A DNA stretch of 47,142 nucleotides, from IMG/VR virus record IMGVR_UViG_3300005733_000001, positions 1 to 47,142 of that record; one strand, written 5' to 3'. This DNA is from a virus. The position numbers were made by a program, and so were the translations under genes. Positions 33,721 to 47,142 of the stretch are shown piece after piece. Position 1 is the stretch's first letter; the number at the start of each line of letters is the position of its first letter. Below the pieces are notes generated by a model. That model was not told the DNA's origin. It did no database searches and saw only the letters and a list, made by a program, of their open reading frames with translations.

Positions 33721-33959
33721 CAGCAAAGATCCTTGTCTGTTTGAATCTCAAGTCTTGTGCCTCCAAAGAGGCCTTTCTTTTTGGAAGAGCAGACTCCAAG
33801 AGCCTTCTTCATGATGTCTCTGATCTTGAGCATTTCATTCAAAGATCTGTACTCAACTTCTTTGTCTGAGTATTTTACTCTAAGAGCACCTTCTGCAATT
33901 GCACACTCCAAAGCATTCAGCTTTTCAAGTGTGAATCCTTGAGTTGATTCTTTTCCCAT
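33720..33959 (-). CDS. gpW-like head-tail joining protein
   Basis: Seventy-nine residues matching the lambda gpW family: LEKLNALECAIAEGALRVKY then VEYRSLNEMLKIRDIMKKAL are near-consensus, with a variable C-terminus. It joins the head to the tail after packaging. In this group the gene sits between terminase and portal, as here. Confidence 0.88.
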   Translation of the reverse strand: MGKESTQGFTLEKLNALECAIAEGALRVKYSDKEVEYRSLNEMLKIRDIMKKALGVCSSKKKGLFGGTRLEIQTDKDLC

Positions 33960-36414: not shown

Positions 36415-37181
36415 TCAAAAGCCCCTTTGTGTTGATCCTCTCAGTCTCCCAGTGAGCCAAAGCTGTGTCAATTTTTTGATCAAAACTCCAAGTCAAATTT
36501 ATTTCTTCTATGATTTTAACACATTGTCTAATGTTTTGACACGAATTGCAAAGTGCTGAAATTATTGAAAAAAACGATCAAAACCTCGAGCAAAGCCGCC
36601 TGCCCCCCATTTTAGGGGGAAGAACCTATTGAAATCATTCAGCTTTCTTTTCTCTTCTAAGTAGCTGATTGTGCGATGACTGTCAGAATCTTAACACTTG
36701 TTTTGACACGACTGTCTAAAGAAAAAGCATAAGAGTGGATCAATTAGATCTGGACATGGATGTCCTTATTGATCCACACTTATAGTGTCGGTTAGTTCTA
36801 TTTTAGATCTATCCATTACATTCAATCAAGCTTTTTACAGATCTTTGAGCTTATGATGAATCAAGAGACTGAGCATGGAGCATGAAGCTCACTGTGGGGG
36901 ACAGCACAGGATAAGCAAAGCCCGTTGTTATTGAAAGGCCTCTGTATTAGTAATGCACACACTGCACACACAGTTAAGCATGAGGGAGGGAGAGCCAGAG
37001 TGACCACGTTAAGGCATCACCATAGATGCAGGCTTTATAAGAGCGTTTTGTCAGGCATAGGCCATCTGACTTAGAAGGACAATGATCCCCAATAACCGAT
37101 CCCAAAGTGTCCTTGAAGCGTGATTTTTAGCTATTCTTGGTCTTTGACTATGTGCCACTGGGAGGGAGGGGAATGGCCTTG
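36415..37181. other. noncoding control region, candidate cos/origin
   Basis: About 770 bases with no convincing gene, upstream of terminase. It holds a nested palindrome (36735-36777), a CCCCC-ATTTTA-GGGGG hairpin (36604-36619), and two copies of GTTTTGACACGA (36533-36544, 36700-36711), each preceded by TTAACAC. It has many more CpG than the flanking genes. This is the expected place for a cos site, for terminase-binding sites and for the late promoter. Confidence 0.6.
36735..36777. repeat. nested inverted repeat
   Basis: Outer ten-base arms GTGGATCAAT / ATTGATCCAC enclose an inner hairpin GGACAT-GG-ATGTCC, with asymmetric spacers of 7 and 2 bases. Perfect arms in a noncoding region suggest a protein-binding or replication element. 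Confidence 0.75.
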
Positions 37182-39968: not shown

Positions 39969-39994
39969 GAGTGCCTCCAAAGTCTTTCATGATT

Positions 39995-40025: not shown

Positions 40026-41021
40026 TTAGTAACCGTTTGAGATGCAGTGTCCATTCTTGAAGTCATACTCTTTCAGATCTTCAAGGCTCCAGTCTTTGAA
40101 CTCTTCAAGTGCAGATCTAAGCTCTTCGATCAGTGTCCCTTTTCTTCCAAGGGCTGTTGAGTTTGCTGCTCCCTTAGCTTCTTGAATTGGGGCCCACTTG
40201 TTAAGCTTATCTCTTTCATGCTTTGCCCATTGGATGAAAGAAGATCTGTCCTCAAGCCACATCAACACAAGAGTCTGCTTGGTGATGTTAGGACAAAACT
40301 TACACATTGAAGGCCCACAAGCTCCCCATGGAGTTGATTCCATGAACTCAATGCAGTCCATGCGGCTCATTCCAAGATCTGTGATCAATGGGAAAGTCTT
40401 ATCAATTGCAGACCACCAAGACTCTTTGCCTGTTGTCTCTGCTTTCTTCATTCTGTTTTCTTCTCCAACTGCAAAGCCAATCATCATCTCAATTTTTGTT
40501 GTGGACTCAGCAAAGGCCACGATGTTTTTCTTTCCATGAGACTTTTCTTCCTCTCCCATAAGCTCGGCACAGAAAGCATTTAAGAATCTGTAGATAGGCT
40601 TGATCTTAAGATTGTCAGTGCATGACTTGTTAGATCTCATGGCCAGGCTGTGAGTGTTTGAGTATCTGATTGCAAGAGCTGCCCAAGCATCAGAGTGAAA
40701 GCCATAAGTAAGATGATCAGTTGATCTCCCTGCTTCTCTGTGGATCTCTCCAACAAGAGGATGAGCAAGATGAATGAACTTGATCCCATAAGCAGCACAA
40801 AGATCTTTGACCTTCCAAGCATGAGCATAGACATCATCTCTCTCATTCCCAGTGTCAGCAAAGATCATCATGAAAGATCTTCCATCAAGCTTCTTAAGAG
40901 CAAAGTCTTTGTCTGTTAAGAATTTATAGAAGATAGCTGTTGAGTCTTGGCCCATCCCAACAGACTCAATGCAGAGTCCATTTTTAAGAGCGTTTTCTTT
41001 TTTCCATATTAAGTGATTCAT
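40026..41021 (-). CDS. PP-loop ATP pyrophosphatase / PAPS-reductase-like protein 1
   Basis: Adenine nucleotide alpha-hydrolase-type protein of 331 residues. The P-loop SVGMGQDST lies at about residues 20-28 and a MIFADTGNERDDVYAHAWKV block matches this superfamily. A cysteine cluster CGPSMCKFCP (CX4CX2C) sits near residue 235 and could hold an Fe-S centre. Such proteins activate a substrate by adenylation for sulfur or amide chemistry. Here the substrate is unknown. It has its own promoter cassette (41022-41147) and the shared leader. Compare the second PP-loop protein at 42782. Confidence 0.75.
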   Translation of the reverse strand: MNHLIWKKENALKNGLCIESVGMGQDSTAIFYKFLTDKDFALKKLDGRSFMMIFADTGNERDDVYAHAWKVKDLCAAYGIKFIHLAHPLVGEIHREAGRSTDHLTYGFHSDAWAALAIRYSNTHSLAMRSNKSCTDNLKIKPIYRFLNAFCAELMGEEEKSHGKKNIVAFAESTTKIEMMIGFAVGEENRMKKAETTGKESWWSAIDKTFPLITDLGMSRMDCIEFMESTPWGACGPSMCKFCPNITKQTLVLMWLEDRSSFIQWAKHERDKLNKWAPIQEAKGAANSTALGRKGTLIEELRSALEEFKDWSLEDLKEYDFKNGHCISNGY

Positions 41022-41147
41022 GATTGCCTCCAAAGCGTTTCAATAACCTTATCTTATTCCAACTCAGATCCAGTCCAAAAAGCAATGACTTAGGGGCTCA
41101 AAATAGATCCCCCAAAGCCTTTTTCTGCCCACAGAATGTGGCAATTT
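41022..41147 (-). promoter_or_regulatory. promoter-leader cassette D (before PP-loop gene 1)
   Basis: Read on the minus strand: a short TGCC...GGCA stem-loop, CCCCAAAGC-complement block (GCTTTGGGG), TAAGTCATTG, TTGGAC (41078-41073), 16-base spacer with TCTGAGTTGG, TAAGAT (41056-41051), AAGG, then GCTTTGGAGGCA and ATG. Same order and spacing as cassettes A-C. Confidence 0.7.
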
Positions 41148-41150
41148 AAG

Positions 41151-41441
41151 TCATTTCAACTGCTTACCAACATCAATCCATCCCTCTGAATAGGTCACTC
41201 TTAAGATCCTCCAATTGATCCTATAAGTGGATGACTTGGCCTTGGATGCAGATCTCAATGCTCTCCTTGCAGACTTCTCATCATGGTAGACTGTTGCTTC
41301 ATTGATCCAACTGCAAGGCTGAATCTTTCTGTTTTCTCTGTGTGAAAGAAAGCGATCCCAACTTTCAGCATGAGGACTCTTGATGTCATACATGACATAG
41401 AATCTGACATACTTTTCAAGAGTGCCATCATCATTCATCAT
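41151..41441 (-). CDS. hypothetical protein (96 aa)
   Basis: Begins at 41441 or 41438 (tandem ATGs) overlapping the previous stop, behind GGGAGGGG. The product has KYVRFYVMYDIKSPHAESWD and SWINEATVYHDEKSARRALR, basic and helical-beta mixed. A nucleic-acid-associated role is plausible but not shown. Confidence 0.6.
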   Translation of the reverse strand: MMNDDGTLEKYVRFYVMYDIKSPHAESWDRFLSHRENRKIQPCSWINEATVYHDEKSARRALRSASKAKSSTYRINWRILRVTYSEGWIDVGKQLK

Positions 41442-41632
41442 CCCCTCCCTTCTCTTTCTTCTGTGATCTTTCTCCATGCAGAGTGAAGCATCTTCATCTG
41501 AAGATCTCTTTGATCTGACTCTCCATGTTCACATTTTTGATCATTGTAATAGTTGTTTAAATCTTCACAAGCAAAGTGAAGCTCTTCCAATTCTTTGTCT
41601 GTGAGATAGAGAGATCTTTTTTTCTTTTTCAT
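41438..41632 (-). CDS. hypothetical protein (64 aa)
   Basis: Small acidic-helical protein (YLTDKELEELHFACEDLNNY) with a basic start. The ATG at 41632 follows the variant leader CACTTGGAGGCAGTG. Unknown function. Confidence 0.6.
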   Translation of the reverse strand: MKKKKRSLYLTDKELEELHFACEDLNNYYNDQKCEHGESDQRDLQMKMLHSAWRKITEEREGRG

Positions 41633-41654
41633 CACTGCCTCCAAGTGAAAAGAA

Positions 41655-41673
41655 GAAGGGGCCAGGCCCCTTC
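41655..41673 (-). terminator. terminator after zinc-ribbon gene
   Basis: Seven-base stem GAAGGGG / CCCCTTC with loop CCAGG (plus-strand reading), followed on the minus strand by TTCTTTTC. It separates the zinc-ribbon gene from the next. Confidence 0.65.
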
Positions 41674-41677
41674 ATGA

Positions 41678-41911
41678 TTAGACTATGACTGTAAGATCCT
41701 TTGAGTAGATGTGCTCGAAGCCTTTGAGTAGATGAGAAGTTGCTTTCACTTCTCCCTCACAAGCAAGGCATCTTCTGTCTTTGATTGTGATCCCAGATTG
41801 CTTCTTGAAGTGAGAGACAAGCTTGCACTTCTCACACTTGGCCTTCACTTCCCATCTTTCTTTTGTTTGTTTTTCTTTTGCATAAGTGTAGATAAATTTT
41901 GATTCTGTCAT
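41678..41911 (-). CDS. small zinc-ribbon protein (77 aa)
   Basis: Start at 41911 fixed by the shared leader GCTTTGGAGGCAAC; the longer open frame upstream is excluded. Two CxxC pairs, CEKC and CLAC, about 18 residues apart form a probable zinc ribbon in a basic protein (FKKQSGITIKDRRCLACEGE). Likely a nucleic-acid or protein-binding early regulator; inferred only. Confidence 0.65.
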   Translation of the reverse strand: MTESKFIYTYAKEKQTKERWEVKAKCEKCKLVSHFKKQSGITIKDRRCLACEGEVKATSHLLKGFEHIYSKDLTVIV

Positions 41912-41982
41912 GTTGCCTCCAAAGCTTATTGAGTCTTGATCATGCCTGATCTTGATTGGGGCTTCCATGCCCCTTGTAAGAA

Positions 41983-42291
41983 TTACACTGTTAAGCAAAG
42001 ACAATTGAAGAAGTGATTGGCATCATCCCAATCAGACACATTCAAGATCACTGCATCACTATTCTCACCAAAGATCAGGACATCAATCACTTCAGATCCA
42101 TCTGTGAGCTTCTTGATCAAAAGTGCATGGCCATGATCATGAGTGTTTTGGATCTTATAACCTTCAAAGCCATCATCGAGATCATCAAAGTCTTGATCAC
42201 ATAGAACAGTAGTCCCAGAGATTCTGTTGACTTCTTTTTTGATCTTCTCAACTAATTCTGCAAACTTTTCTTTTTTCTGTGTTGCTGCCAT
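41983..42291 (-). CDS. acidic hypothetical protein (102 aa)
   Basis: The ATG at 42291 follows GCTTTGGAGGCAAAA. N-terminal helix (KFAELVEKIKKEVNRISG) and an acidic body with GFEGYKIQNTHDHGHALLIK and DAVILNVSDWDDANHFFNCL. The alternation of strands and Asp/Gly turns suggests a small alpha/beta fold. Not recognised. Confidence 0.6.
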   Translation of the reverse strand: MAATQKKEKFAELVEKIKKEVNRISGTTVLCDQDFDDLDDGFEGYKIQNTHDHGHALLIKKLTDGSEVIDVLIFGENSDAVILNVSDWDDANHFFNCLCLTV

Positions 42292-42355
42292 TTTTGCCTC
42301 CAAAGCGTTTTTCTTATTGGGCCAGGCTGATGCACTGGCCTTAATATTTTTTTTC

Positions 42356-42631
42356 TTATGATCTTGATGTGAAGTTGATCACAGTTGGCTCTCTCTCTTT
42401 TGTGATCTCTGGGAATTGCTCACAAATAAGATCCACTTGCTCATCATTGATGAAGTAGCTGTCAACTCTCCAGAAATTTCCAAAAGCATCTTCTTGATCT
42501 TTCTTAACAAGAGTTGCAAGTCCTGCTGCAAGAAGCTTTTTTCCGATTCTTACAGTTGTTCTTCTGTATTCTGCTTTAATTGTTACTGTGAATCTTAGTG
42601 CTTCAATCTGTCTTTCAGTAAGTGTGATCAT
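42356..42631 (-). CDS. hypothetical protein (91 aa), possible winged helix
   Basis: The sequence ITLTERQIEALRFTVTIKAE then TTVRIGKKLLAAGLATLVKK looks like the helix-turn-wing of a small DNA-binding protein. The remainder is WRVDSYFINDEQVDLICEQF. It is preceded by promoter cassette C and the shared leader. A regulatory role is plausible; the fold is only suggested. Confidence 0.6.
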   Translation of the reverse strand: MITLTERQIEALRFTVTIKAEYRRTTVRIGKKLLAAGLATLVKKDQEDAFGNFWRVDSYFINDEQVDLICEQFPEITKEREPTVINFTSRS

Positions 42632-42763
42632 GTTGCCTCCAAAGCAGTTATTGTTTTCTATGTCCTAATATTAAGCCCAATCAGATCAGATCAAAAATTC
42701 AATCACTTAGGCTCTCCAAAACTGCTCCCCAAAGCTAAAAAGTGCCTCCCAATTGAGGCACTT
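42632..42763 (-). promoter_or_regulatory. promoter-leader cassette C with terminator
   Basis: Minus-strand order: stem-loop AAGTGCCTC / GAGGCACTT (42740-42763) followed by U4 terminates the PP-loop 2 gene, then GCTTTGGGG (42735-42727), CCTAAGTGATTG, TTTGAT (42695-42690), 16-base spacer, TAATAT (42673-42668), then GCTTTGGAGGCA and ATG 42631. Confidence 0.75.
42740..42763 (-). terminator. terminator after PP-loop gene 2
   Basis: Perfect nine-base stem AAGTGCCTC / GAGGCACTT with a six-base loop, followed on the minus strand by TTTTAGC. It ends the upstream gene just before cassette C. Confidence 0.8.
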
Positions 42764-42781
42764 GCTTTTGATTTTAGTGAC

Positions 42782-43627
42782 TTAGACTGCCATGCTCCAC
42801 TGCTCTTCTGAGAGATCCACTCCCTGCTCTTCAAGGATGTCAGCAATTGAGATCCTCTGCTCTGGCTTCGTCTTAGTGGCCTTCTTATACTTGAAGCTTG
42901 TTGAGATCTTGGCTTCAGCTTCCATGTAGGCCTTAACAATCTCAGGGGCTCTCTCAGCAGCAATTGCAATCTCTTTGTTGCTTGAGAAGATGCAGATGGC
43001 ACATGAGGCTCTTGAGACTCCCCAAGAGTAACAAGGATGCACAGGGGCTCCACTCTTCTCAATTGCTTCCCACACTTCAGTCTCAAGTACTTTCAAGATC
43101 GGGCTCCACTTAACAACAGTTCTTGATCCATCCTTTCTTGTGTTCTTAGGATCAGGCCTCCATGATTCAAGATTGGCTCTTTTGATTGACTCTTCAGCTC
43201 TCTCTCCAATCATGACAAGGACATTCCCCTTGAGGCTTCTTGCAAACTTATCAATTGGCCCAGTCTTAAGAATTGAAGTACACCAGCGATTGGCCATATC
43301 TGGCACCATGTACTCCTTTTTCTCTCCAGTCTTTCTGTCGATTCTCTCTGATGTTAACTGATCAAGGAATCCTTTCTCTTTTCCATTCTTATCAACTGCG
43401 ATCACAAAGATTGGCTCAACATTGAAGAAAGCACATTGAGCTTTCACAACTTCTTTAGTCTCTTTCCAATCAATATCAATCACTGCATGGACATAGTGAA
43501 AAGTAGTGTTGGGAAGTTCTTTCTTAAGTCTCTCAGCTTGGATCATGAGAAGAGTTGAGTCCTTCCCTCCTGAGATTGATACGATGATGTGGTCTGCTTG
43601 TGTGTAATTGTTGAATGATGTTTTCAT
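42782..43627 (-). CDS. PAPS-reductase-like PP-loop protein 2
   Basis: Clear phosphoadenylyl-sulfate reductase/DndC-type domain: SGGKDST at residues 19-25, WCTSILKTGPIDKFARSL, GERAEESIKRANLESWRP, and the end CYSWGVSRASCAICIFSS with C...CxxC. The latter cluster resembles Fe-S ligands of DndC-like enzymes, but no full dnd or ssp set is present. It is distinct from PP-loop protein 1. ATG 43627 follows the shared leader, excluding the longer frame. Roles in DNA or RNA modification, or in sulfur supply, are possible. Phage homologues are of uncertain function. Confidence 0.82.
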   Translation of the reverse strand: MKTSFNNYTQADHIIVSISGGKDSTLLMIQAERLKKELPNTTFHYVHAVIDIDWKETKEVVKAQCAFFNVEPIFVIAVDKNGKEKGFLDQLTSERIDRKTGEKKEYMVPDMANRWCTSILKTGPIDKFARSLKGNVLVMIGERAEESIKRANLESWRPDPKNTRKDGSRTVVKWSPILKVLETEVWEAIEKSGAPVHPCYSWGVSRASCAICIFSSNKEIAIAAERAPEIVKAYMEAEAKISTSFKYKKATKTKPEQRISIADILEEQGVDLSEEQWSMAV

Positions 43628-43656
43628 AAGTGCCTCCAAAGCGCTTGTTGTTAAAA

Positions 43657-43848
43657 TTAAACCCAAGTATTGTTTTCAGATCTGTAAAAAGATCTAGTTT
43701 TCCCATCTTGATCTCTTATGATCACAATATTGTTGAAGCCTTTCCCTGCAGCACTTGCAAGCCATTCGTTAAGCTCATCAATGTTGTTGAGGTGTTCTTT
43801 GTGAGAAAGTGTGTTGTTGAGATTTTTTTTGAAAACTGTGTAAGTCAT
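43657..43848 (-). CDS. hypothetical protein (63 aa)
   Basis: Small protein (TVFKKNLNNTLSHKEHLNNI; FNNIVIIRDQDGKTRSFYRS) of mixed alpha/beta type, unrecognised. The ATG at 43848 follows promoter cassette B and the shared leader GCTTTGGAGGCACTT. Its end is within 30 bases of the next gene's start. Confidence 0.6.
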   Translation of the reverse strand: MTYTVFKKNLNNTLSHKEHLNNIDELNEWLASAAGKGFNNIVIIRDQDGKTRSFYRSENNTWV

Positions 43849-43970
43849 AAGTGCCTCCAAAGCAAGTTATGCCCTTATATTAGACCCAATCTGACACAGT
43901 CCAAAAAACAGGCATTTAGCCTGGTCAAAATACTTCCCCAAAGCAAAAAGATGCCCACACTTATTGGCAC
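43849..43970 (-). promoter_or_regulatory. promoter-leader cassette B
   Basis: Minus-strand order: TGCC...GGCA stem-loop followed by TCTTTTTG, GCTTTGGGG (43944-43936), GGCTAAATGCC, TTGGAC (43904-43899), 16-base spacer with TCAGATTGGG, TAATAT (43882-43877), AAGGGC, then GCTTTGGAGGCACTT and ATG. Confidence 0.75.
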
Positions 43971-44067
43971 ACATCAGGAGAAGCTCTCAGAGCCCCTCTG
44001 TGGACTGGCCTGATGAATGTGATGTCTGAGATGGGGAGAGTGACTGGGAAGGGAGAAGGCCAAAAAA

Positions 44068-44086
44068 AAGGGGCTCAAGGCCCCTT
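44068..44086 (-). terminator. terminator after 71-residue gene
   Basis: Seven-base stem AAGGGGC / GCCCCTT with loop TCAAG, followed on the minus strand by U8 (A tract 44062-44069). It ends the gene starting at 44308. Confidence 0.85.
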
Positions 44087-44092
44087 CTGTTA

Positions 44093-44308
44093 TTACTTCC
44101 AATTGGAGAAGTAGTCTCTTCTCTCTGCTCCTCTGAGCCCCTTCACATCAGCATTGTGATTGAGCATGATCTTTCTCTCTTCCCAAGAGCAACAAGTCAG
44201 TTCTTCTCTGTTGTAGATCTTTTCTTTTTTCTCTCTCTTAACAGGAGCGATCTCTTTTTTCTTTTCTGGACTGTTTAGGAATTTGTCTAAGTAGCTTTCT
44301 GTTGTCAT
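44093..44308 (-). CDS. basic hypothetical protein (71 aa)
   Basis: Lys/Glu-rich protein with two adjacent cysteines (EELTCCSWEERKIMLNHNAD) and a C-terminal LRGAERRDYFSNWK. The ATG at 44308 follows the shared leader GCTTTGGAGGCAAAC and cassette A. First gene of the leftward early-type cluster. Function unknown. Confidence 0.6.
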   Translation of the reverse strand: MTTESYLDKFLNSPEKKKEIAPVKREKKEKIYNREELTCCSWEERKIMLNHNADVKGLRGAERRDYFSNWK

Positions 44309-44426
44309 GTTTGCCTCCAAAGCAGTTATCATTAATAAGATATTAGGCCCTTTCTGTTTATTTCAAAAATTCAATCACTTATGGCCTGGCATAGGTCTAA
44401 AAACTGCCCACAATCTGTGTCTGTGG
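44309..44426 (-). promoter_or_regulatory. promoter-leader cassette A
   Basis: Minus-strand order: CCACA/TGTGG stem-loop (44408-44426), ATAAGTGATTG, TTTGAA (44367-44362), 16-base spacer, TAATAT (44345-44340), then AACTGCTTTGGAGGCA and ATG 44308. The GCTTTGGGG block is degenerate here. Confidence 0.7.
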
Positions 44427-44438
44427 TATTCTGGATCT

Positions 44439-44678
44439 ATGAGAAGGCTTCTCCCTGCATTCCTTTGCTTCCTGCTTGTGATCTATCATCCCAATCAAAA
44501 GACATCTGAGATCAAGATCTATGAGCTTACAGTGAAAGAAGATCTGATTGAGATTGTCTGTGCTGAAGGAGTCAGTGAAGCAGAGTGTCTTGGAGGGGAG
44601 AAAGAAAAAAGAGAGATCACTTCAGTCTCTTGGGAAGAGATTGAAAACTTTGTCATCAAAGGGCCTTACTCTTTTTAG
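44439..44678 (+). CDS. small exported/membrane protein (79 aa)
   Basis: A plus-strand gene among leftward genes. The N-terminus is RRLLPAFLCFLLVIYHPNQ, a short hydrophobic segment fitting a signal or anchor, followed by a soluble part (YELTVKEDLIEIVCAEGVSE). The ribosome site before ATG 44439 is poor (CTGGATCT). It converges with the 47-residue gene, overlapping four bases at their stops. The codons follow the genome's GATC-rich pattern. Function unknown. Confidence 0.5.
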   Translation: MRRLLPAFLCFLLVIYHPNQKTSEIKIYELTVKEDLIEIVCAEGVSEAECLGGEKEKREITSVSWEEIENFVIKGPYSF

Positions 44679-44818
44679 TCAGGCTCACCACAGGGCTCAT
44701 AGTCAAACTCTTCAGAGTCATCATCATAGTCACCTTCTTGGAATGGCCCATCAGCTTCAGACTTTTCTCTTAGTTTTCTTTTGAGCTTCTTCCAAGAGGG
44801 AGGGGGACTCTCACTCAT
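44675..44818 (-). CDS. acidic small protein (47 aa)
   Basis: Begins at 44818 inside the last codons of the phosphoesterase gene. SPPPSWKKLKRKLREKSEAD then a strongly acidic tail (EGDYDDDSEEFDYEP). An SSB-like or inhibitor-like acidic tail is visible but no family is assigned. Confidence 0.5.
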   Translation of the reverse strand: MSESPPPSWKKLKRKLREKSEADGPFQEGDYDDDSEEFDYEPCGEPD

Positions 44819-46151
44819 GATCATCTTCTCTTTCTCTTTGATAGTAATTCCCATCAATGACAGTCCATCCATTTTGAATTGAATGAATCTTTTGAAAGAC
44901 TTCATGAGTCTTGGCATTGATGATCACTTCAAGAAAGCCAGTGCTCCATCCACAAAGATTGTCCAAGTAAGAAGCATCCTTTGAATGCATAGCAGGAGTC
45001 TGACTCCATGAATGAACTTTCCCCATGTGTGTCACTGGATCAAGATAGACGAATTCTTTCAACTCTCCCAAGTGGTGATGTCCATGGGATCCTGACATGA
45101 CTTTGAGCCTTTTGTCAGGCAAGTGAGTAAAAACAAAACAATCAAAATATATTTGATAATTTTTCTTAGCTTCATTGTTGAGATCCTTTTTTGAAAAGGC
45201 TCCAAGATCAAACTTTGATGCCCAATTGATCTCATACTTATCAAGGCCAAAGATGTCTTTGAATGAGAGTCCCATGACATCAGACAAGAGGATCTTAACA
45301 TTGGGAGTTGCATCTGCAAGAAGCTTGAGAAGTCTGATCTCATGATTGCCACAGATAAGATCTATCTGGGCATCAGGACAAGCAGCTCTCAAGGGAGCAA
45401 AGACTCTCTCTCTGACAAAATCGAACCTTCCTACGATGTCATAGGATCTTGGATCAACTGTGTATCTTCCAAACTCCAAGAGATCAAAGATGTCTCCATT
45501 GAGGACAATGACATCAGGCTGCTTCCTTGCACACTCTGCAATAAAAACAGAGAGGCTGAATTCACAGCACTCTCTGTCATGCAAGTCTGACATTGCCAGA
45601 ATTGTTTTGATGTGAAAGGGGGATGGGGCTTTTGTGTGTTTGTTGTAATAAGGCAGGACTTCTCTTTTGAAAAATTCCCTGTAATGATCAAGGCTCACTG
45701 CCTTTGCTTGCTGGACTTCTATCTTGTGCTGAGATCTAAGAAGCTCAAGTCCGGCCTGGCGTTTGAATTCTTGGAAAGAGCCAAAGTGAAGGCTCCATGT
45801 TGAGTCAGAGAATGATCCATGCTCTCTGTAAAACATTCGAGTGATTGTCTTTCCCCAATTGTCCTGTTGGACTCTTCGAAGATCTTCAATCATCTCATCT
45901 GGAGTTGCATTGGGATCAAACTTCTTAAGGTTTTCAGAAAGAAGAGATCTCTGTGATGGGGAGAGTGATTTTTTGAATTCAATCTCTGCTGCCTCTTGGA
46001 AGGCAGTCCATGTCTTAAAATGTTTTAGGATCTGTCTATGTGGAGCAAAGCCCAAGATCTGTGAGAAGGACTCTCTTGAGATCTTCTTCTCAGGATCTTC
46101 GAGATTCCTTTTGATGTCCACATAGTGTGTGAGCAATTCCTTTGCTGTCAT
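44811..46151 (-). CDS. metallophosphoesterase with N-terminal HNH-associated-type repeats
   Basis: Calcineurin-like phosphoesterase domain from about residue 185: ILAMSDLHDRE (D-x-H), VIVLNGDIFDLLEFG (GDxxD), LICGNHEIRL (GNHE) and VMSGSHGHHHLGEL (GHxH) give the full metal-ligand set. The N-terminal ~150 residues contain repeated short helical units (HFKTWTAFQEAAEIE; HFGSFQEFKRQAGL) like those seen beside homing endonucleases, probably for DNA binding. At 446 residues the fusion is longer than usual phage phosphoesterases. Substrate unknown; a nuclease or DNA-end enzyme is plausible. Confidence 0.8.
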   Translation of the reverse strand: MTAKELLTHYVDIKRNLEDPEKKISRESFSQILGFAPHRQILKHFKTWTAFQEAAEIEFKKSLSPSQRSLLSENLKKFDPNATPDEMIEDLRRVQQDNWGKTITRMFYREHGSFSDSTWSLHFGSFQEFKRQAGLELLRSQHKIEVQQAKAVSLDHYREFFKREVLPYYNKHTKAPSPFHIKTILAMSDLHDRECCEFSLSVFIAECARKQPDVIVLNGDIFDLLEFGRYTVDPRSYDIVGRFDFVRERVFAPLRAACPDAQIDLICGNHEIRLLKLLADATPNVKILLSDVMGLSFKDIFGLDKYEINWASKFDLGAFSKKDLNNEAKKNYQIYFDCFVFTHLPDKRLKVMSGSHGHHHLGELKEFVYLDPVTHMGKVHSWSQTPAMHSKDASYLDNLCGWSTGFLEVIINAKTHEVFQKIHSIQNGWTVIDGNYYQREREDDHE

Positions 46152-46661: not shown

Positions 46662-46948
46662 TCCCCTGCCTCCAGTAGTTTTATTTTCTCTAGGGCTTCA
46701 CATAACTTGCATTTACATAATGGTTCGATACACCAGTGTGTTGTGCAATACTCCACCGCCTCCATAAGAATAGCGTTTTCCTTCTCAGCCTTCTCTAGTT
46801 GAGAGGTGAGGGTTTTAACTTCCTTGTTAATCGCTTGAATCATTTTTGCTATTTCATCGGTATGTACAAACATACCTTCTTTATTCTCAATAAAATGTAA
46901 ATCATCTCTATCTAAATAATCGCTATCATTAATAATTAACTTACTCAT
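46658..46948 (-). CDS. coiled-coil, cysteine-rich protein (96 aa)
   Basis: N-terminal globular half, then a coiled coil (VKTLTSQLEKAEKENAILME), then CTTHWCIEPLCKCKLC, a possible metal site, and LEAGE. The stretch LTSQLEKAE is encoded by the same 29-base DNA found in the preceding gene. Composition is CpG-containing and free of GATC, unlike most of the genome. The start at 46948 follows GGGAGGGGGA and overlaps the junction gene (ATGA). Unknown function. Confidence 0.65.
   Translation of the reverse strand: MSKLIINDSDYLDRDDLHFIENKEGMFVHTDEIAKMIQAINKEVKTLTSQLEKAEKENAILMEAVEYCTTHWCIEPLCKCKLCEALEKIKLLEAGE
46784..46812. repeat. 29-bp direct repeat, copy 1
   Basis: Exact match to 47041-47069 (CTCAGCCTTC...GAGGTGAGGG on the plus strand). 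Both copies are in coding frame and encode LTSQLEKAE in adjacent genes. Confidence 0.9.
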
Positions 46949-47142
46949 TCCCCCTCCCTATTCTTAAAATATTCACGGGCGGTATAGCTCGGCTCCATGT
47001 AGTGAGATGGTTCCCTATCCCTTATATAAACTAACGCTTCCTCAGCCTTCTCTAGTTGAGAGGTGAGGGATTTTGTTTCCAAACTCATCATTAAATCTAA
47101 AGGTAGATATGTTTTATTCCCGCATTTCTCACACTCTATTCT
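46945..47142 (-). CDS. junction-spanning CxxC protein, C-terminal part
   Basis: Continuation of the gene starting at base 80. This copy holds codons 3-67 and lacks only the first two codons. The middle is a coiled-coil stretch (LETKSLTSQLEKAEEALVYI) and the end is YTAREYFKNREGE. The stop (46947-46945) overlaps the next gene's start as ATGA. The unbroken frame across the join is strong evidence that the molecule is circular or was circularly permuted. Confidence 0.8.
   Translation of the reverse strand, partial: RIECEKCGNKTYLPLDLMMSLETKSLTSQLEKAEEALVYIRDREPSHYMEPSYTAREYFKNREGE
47041..47069. repeat. 29-bp direct repeat, copy 2
   Basis: Second copy inside the junction-spanning gene, ending where the 74-bp terminal repeat begins. 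Confidence 0.9.
47069..47142. repeat. 74-bp terminal direct repeat, right copy
   Basis: Exact copy of bases 1-74. It lies inside the junction-spanning small gene, two codons short of that gene's start. Confidence 0.95.

Follow-up and report, generated by a model that had tools for sequence, protein, structure and literature searches.

The DNA analysed here (the window) is the complete 47,142-nt IMG/VR virus record IMGVR_UViG_3300005733_000001, whose record class is linear. On its minus strand, between 44.4 and 39.15 kb, lies a block of genes in which four promoter-like cassettes and a repeated ribosome-binding leader are followed, at the end of the block, by stem-loops whose loops are complementary to that leader. 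The 'early' timing of the block is an assumption taken from gene type and position. Its principal genes and internal terminators are as follows.

44093..44308, minus: gene behind cassette 1, 71 amino acids, no family
44086-44068, minus: terminator stem with a T8 run behind it, downstream of gene 44308
43657..43848, minus: gene behind cassette 2, 63 amino acids, no family
42782..43627, minus: PAPS1, PAPS-reductase-like
42763-42740, minus: clear intrinsic terminator after PAPS1, upstream of cassette 3
42356..42631, minus: gene behind cassette 3, 91 amino acids, no family
40026..41021, minus: PAPS2, PAPS-reductase-like, behind cassette 4

A preliminary description of this DNA had proposed that four repeated cassettes separate unrelated genes. 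The presence of promoter-like elements between unrelated small genes is supported: a 42-nt ungapped promoter core, running from the box TAAGTGATTG through TAATAT, recurs four times on the minus strand.

44381-44340, minus: cassette 1 promoter core (box, -35, -10), before gene 44308
43918-43877, minus: cassette 2 promoter core, before gene 43848
42709-42668, minus: cassette 3 promoter core, before gene 42631
41092-41051, minus: cassette 4 promoter core, with TAAGAT as its -10, before gene 41021

In a leave-one-out test, in which a matrix built from three copies was scored on the fourth and on the whole window, the left-out copies reached 33.6, 30.1, 41.7 and 30.5, against 6.2 to 8.4 for the highest non-cassette site. 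Masking the -35 and -10 columns left copies 1 (21.0 vs 13.9) and 3 (29.1 vs 13.2) clearly distinct, while copy 4 stood barely above background (15.9 vs 15.4) and copy 2 fell below it (12.5 vs 13.0). Identity among the cassettes was 0.56 in the spacer (0.26 when shuffled) and 0.80 in the box (0.30 when shuffled), values that none of 20,000 shuffles reached in either case. By blastp the genes behind the cassettes are unrelated, and all four start where they had been placed.

The finer architecture proposed for the cassettes survived in part. The common order of parts holds for the core in all four, while several of the listed parts are missing from some copies: the box, GATTGGG and an AAGG immediately after the -10 are each exact or present in two of the four, and GCTTTGGGG is found in three, being absent at 44308. 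Sigma-70-type promoters consist of TTGACA, 16-18 nt and TATAAT. All cassette copies agree with the -10 consensus at four of six positions; the -35 hexamers in the fixed register lie at spacing 16 and match at two or three of six, and the best hexamers in the window match TTGACA at four or five of six, at spacing 15. What is constant is therefore the distance from box to -10, and the 16-base spacer once ascribed to all four depends on the hexamer chosen. Similarly, a stem-loop had been placed before each cassette; the one at 42763-42740 forms a clear intrinsic terminator, weaker ones lie at 44426-44408 and near 43.98 kb, and the one preceding gene 41021 has no T-run.

The leader GCTTTGGAGGCA, which contains a Shine-Dalgarno sequence, had been described as a part of the cassettes. 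This restriction did not stand: three of its seven exact copies ahead of genes have no promoter cassette (genes 43627, 42291 and 41911), and a copy with one mismatch precedes gene 39968.

44312..44323, minus: leader GCTTTGGAGGCA, cassette 1
43852..43863, minus: leader GCTTTGGAGGCA, cassette 2
43631..43642, minus: leader GCTTTGGAGGCA before PAPS1 (43627), no promoter cassette
42634..42645, minus: leader GCTTTGGAGGCA, cassette 3
42295..42306, minus: leader GCTTTGGAGGCA before gene 42291, no promoter cassette
41914..41925, minus: leader GCTTTGGAGGCA before gene 41911, no promoter cassette
41025..41036, minus: leader GCTTTGGAGGCA, cassette 4
39972..39983, minus: leader ACTTTGGAGGCA, one mismatch, before gene 39968

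Searching viral contigs for the leader alone gave scattered single matches only. One candidate, L037, was rejected; its repeats sit within a repetitive gene.

The complement of the leader, CCTCCAAAG on the block strand, is confined to the block's end, in the interval that separates the last gene from an endolysin-type gene converging on it; there, three stem-loops (SL1 to SL3) follow one another.

39270-39232, minus: SL1, 10-bp perfect stem, loop TTAAGCCTCCAAAGCAATT complementary to the leader
39232-39203, minus: SL2, 8-bp perfect stem, loop CGCCTCCAAAGCAA complementary to the leader
39202-39160, minus: SL3, terminator stem and U-rich tail (UUUCUUU), closing the block

The loops of SL1 and SL2 each carry GCCTCCAAAGC, the exact 11-nt complement of the seven exact leaders, and GCCTCCAAAGCAATTGG occurs only in these loops, with 0.02 occurrences expected even when two mismatches are allowed. 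The region has a folding energy of -50 kcal/mol, against -31 (standard deviation 3.3) in shuffles (z -5.7), and the loop core CUCCAAA has a predicted unpaired probability of at least 0.84. The complementarity was first noticed by reading the sequence; later scans used fixed rules, with a scan target chosen after the fact. Among the 293 loci compared (3.7 Mb in all), a loop match of 11 nt to at least two leaders on the same strand turned up nowhere else. A further putative loop target in the window, at 33764, was rejected: the site is within coding sequence and is not a leader.

Relatives were found through PAPS1 and PAPS2 (L301, L302 and L303) and through the metallophosphoesterase gene at 44811-46151 (L306). 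In two of them, L302 and L301, leader and loop both differ from those of the window yet match one another. The last block gene of L302 is followed by a loop with GATGACCTCCAAAGA, the L302 leaders read TGGAGGTCA, and the loop-leader matches at four genes are 13, 13, 12 and 10 nt long. L301 has its loop, GCACCTCCAAAGTAA, after PAPS2, whose own leader TACTTTGGAGGTGC it matches by 14 nt; the corresponding own-loop matches are 11-12 nt for the window leader GCTTTGGAGGC and up to 13 nt for the L302 leader TTTGGAGGTCATC. Own-loop duplex energies are -22.8 to -24.6 kcal/mol in the window, -19.1 to -24.1 in L302, which holds the weakest such duplex, and -26.0 in L301, whereas the same leaders paired with foreign loops give -16.1 to -20.0, -11.9 to -16.2 and -18.4 to -20.3 kcal/mol, respectively. 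Each leader is lower in duplex energy with its own loop than with either foreign one. Because both partners have changed between genomes, their agreement reflects more than shared ancestry of unchanged sequence. Behind the loop, read in block direction, each of the three genomes has a terminator stem and a U-rich tail.

On the strength of these sequence comparisons, we propose with moderate confidence that the block is a phage regulon, in which plug-in promoter-leader cassettes would be combined with an antisense RNA that blocks the shared ribosome-binding site. The block would have been assembled from plug-in units, the four cassettes providing a promoter of host type, with a weak -35, a TAATAT -10 and a conserved box upstream, together with the common leader, and further genes bearing the leader alone. 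The last transcript would close with the two stem-loops, whose loops hold GCCUCCAAAGC, and then the terminator. Its antisense 3' end, either released by processing or kept as part of the mRNA, would pair with the leaders of seven or eight genes and cover the Shine-Dalgarno sequence, so that initiation would be blocked, as negative feedback or as shut-off. Since the loops are the exact complement of the shared leader, one RNA could silence all leader genes at once. Promoter activity, the existence of the antisense RNA, its pairing, the repression and its timing are all elements that we infer.

The source and reach of such an RNA can be narrowed further. The stop codon of the last block gene falls inside SL1 in the window and inside the hairpin in L302, so the simplest source of the RNA would be the 3' end of the last mRNA. 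A search by eye for a separate promoter yielded only a weak TTGAAT-16-TAAGAT inside the last gene, and we therefore claim none. Four promoters and at least two terminators would split the block into several transcripts; with terminators behind gene 44308 and behind PAPS1, and with promoters inside the block, most leaders would lie on transcripts other than the loop-ending one, and the action would be largely in trans.

Several points weigh against this regulon. Within the window loops, the two outermost letters on either side of the 11-nt complement form pairs with one another (predicted unpaired probability 0.03-0.16), which leaves seven letters open, and the leaders of cassettes 2 and 3 may be partly folded. 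Any loop containing CCTCC inevitably has some complementarity to the leader. In L302 the stem is short, at 7 bp, and the fold of the region is only moderately better than in shuffles (z -2.1), L301 has a single target, and the loop-leader pair was found in three genomes only.

If the proposal is correct, a single RNA controls the whole block through a repeated leader, which would account for the immediate control of small genes that a phage has newly acquired. More tentatively, and with somewhat less conviction than for the regulon itself, the leader may act as an address tag: a gene acquired behind a cassette or leader would automatically come under one promoter type and one antisense RNA, and tag and RNA would co-evolve as lock and key, possibly leaving relatives insensitive to each other's RNA. 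The leader/antisense pair would be portable, with three natural specificities that are directly testable, and wherever a phage leader is repeated, its complement elsewhere in the same genome is worth checking.

The cassettes themselves invite another explanation, compatible with the regulon, according to which they are mobile units of the PeSL type whose repeats are kept mainly as recombination sites that shuffle small genes. The L302 locus reads metallophosphoesterase, divergent small gene, cassette, PAPS1, two small genes, cassette, PAPS2. It has one cassette at the site where the window has cassette-gene-cassette-gene, and the small genes of the two genomes are wholly different. Scored with the window matrix, the first L302 cassette reaches 18.4, top of the locus (next 7.1); the two L302 cassettes align with each other over 100 nt with a score of 91, compared with 18-35 against the window copies. 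Identity over the core is 0.74 for the L302 pair, 0.62-0.81 among the window copies and 0.43-0.64 across the two genomes. Because the L302 cassettes are closest to each other while the PAPS genes behind them are orthologs of the window genes, the cassettes appear to evolve in concert within a genome, through copying, conversion or a co-evolving factor. These observations favour shuffling. Of the expected gene swaps bounded by cassettes, we found one insertion (window vs L302), in only one comparison. Against it, several genes bear the leader only, and across 2.9 million viral contigs a degenerate cassette pattern matched only the L302 contig, with two hits, and a single unrelated sequence shared by two contigs (L323 and L326, rejected as cassette carriers), so there is no sign of wide spread. 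One relative, L302, has such cassettes, two in number. We consider shuffling as the main purpose of the repeats possible and rather unlikely.

Two details of the L302 cassettes stand apart from this question. The region upstream of the second one shares a 14-nt identity with window cassette 2, above shuffles and too short to build on, and the second cassette (L302:11717-11772) has the inverted window box (CAATCACTTG) directly ahead of the ribosome-binding site.

Comparably doubtful, and equally compatible with the regulon, is the idea that a phage transcription factor controlling the block uses box and spacer as its operators. Both are conserved beyond the needs of sigma-70, and the spacer differs between genomes, but no regulator was identified among the searched proteins. 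Less likely still is a reading in which the cassettes are just ordinary repeats of a promoter and the loops complement the leader by coincidence, with no regulatory role. Single 11-nt hairpin-loop/leader matches do arise by chance, a few dozen in the 3.7 Mb; however, here two window loops have seven targets each, L302 has four at 10-13 nt and L301 a 14-nt match, and genome-specific flanks are matched in all three genomes. Least probable is a function of the opposite strand, whose stem-loops, displaying GCUUUGGAGGC, would mimic the leader and soak up a leader-binding regulator: such a mimic would likewise change along with the leader, and genes converge on the loops in the window (the endolysin-type gene) and in L302 (an other-strand gene), but in all three genomes the U-rich terminator tails fit the block direction alone, and L301 has no convergent gene, its next gene running in the same direction.

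Among known systems, the preliminary description had likened the cassettes to the PeSL cassettes of T4-type phages (cited in PMC4503421), an early promoter plus stem-loop, present in several copies between small genes and linked to gene shuffling. The likeness lies in the repeated promoter and stem-loop between small genes and in possible gene shuffling. The window has four promoter-like copies with one strong terminator and others weaker, and one cassette-bounded insertion together with concerted evolution, among few relatives. It differs in having only four copies, with a shared ribosome-binding leader and matching antisense loops. The -35 is weak, and the phage is not of T4 type: a protein-family search found lambda-type terminase and portal, a head protease and a tail sheath in this 47-kb record. 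The concept stands for promoter-like repeats between unrelated small genes, and by analogy PeSL offers a parallel for the cassettes only.

For the loops, the closest parallels are bacterial and phage antisense RNAs. The alpha-r14 small RNAs (NfeR1, 'cuckoo') of alphaproteobacteria have three hairpins with an invariant CCUCCUCCC in unpaired regions and several mRNA targets (PMC10746234). They share with the block tandem hairpins that each bear the same anti-Shine-Dalgarno motif and address several mRNAs, whereas here one or two hairpins carry CCUCCAAAG, the targets of alpha-r14 are bacterial, and the phage loop is tailored to its own leader and changes with it. C4 antisense RNA of P1/P7 has complementary sequences, likely in loops, that bind around the ant ribosome-binding site (PMC12197685); its loops are likewise complementary to the ribosome-binding region of the phage's own mRNA, but its target is the single ant mRNA rather than seven or eight genes. 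Rfam returned no matching family or covariance model for either resemblance, the weak matches at the terminator being far below gathering scores. The sar RNA of P22 and OOP RNA of lambda are small phage antisense RNAs that lower phage gene expression, and C4, sar, OOP and aQ are each described with a single phage target (PMC12197685). Like them, the proposed RNA would act on phage genes; unlike sar and OOP, it would pair with a repeated leader. By analogy, the window system would work like the alpha-r14 and C4 antisense RNAs, as a member of neither.

Beyond the block, the metallophosphoesterase gene (44811-46151, minus) has a homing-endonuclease-associated repeat domain (PF18780) and is conserved at 60-70% in L301, L302 and L306. 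A small gene at 44439-44678 (plus), divergent from cassette 1, has a hydrophobic start and is recognisable by eye in L302 and L306. PAPS2 (40026-41021) and PAPS1 (42782-43627) belong to the same PHROG within one block and are 56% and 73% identical to their L302 orthologs. L303, which has PAPS1 only, showed neither cassette nor loop, and in L306 the metallophosphoesterase and divergent genes are followed by packaging genes, with no block.

The closest cellular match to the window terminase is a Bdellovibrionales contig (49%). No related block was found in about 290 genomes of that contig's phylum or in about 290 genomes of the class of an alphaproteobacterium. The portal protein as query gave zero relatives; the terminase gave many, and PAPS2 was present in none beyond L301 and L302. 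Directly upstream of the small terminase gene lies an inverted repeat (36729-36783; 19-nt arms, 89%, with 17 nt between), possibly an operator or packaging signal. At the window's end lies a 40-nt direct repeat of 90% identity (46784-46823 and 47041-47080, 257 nt apart).

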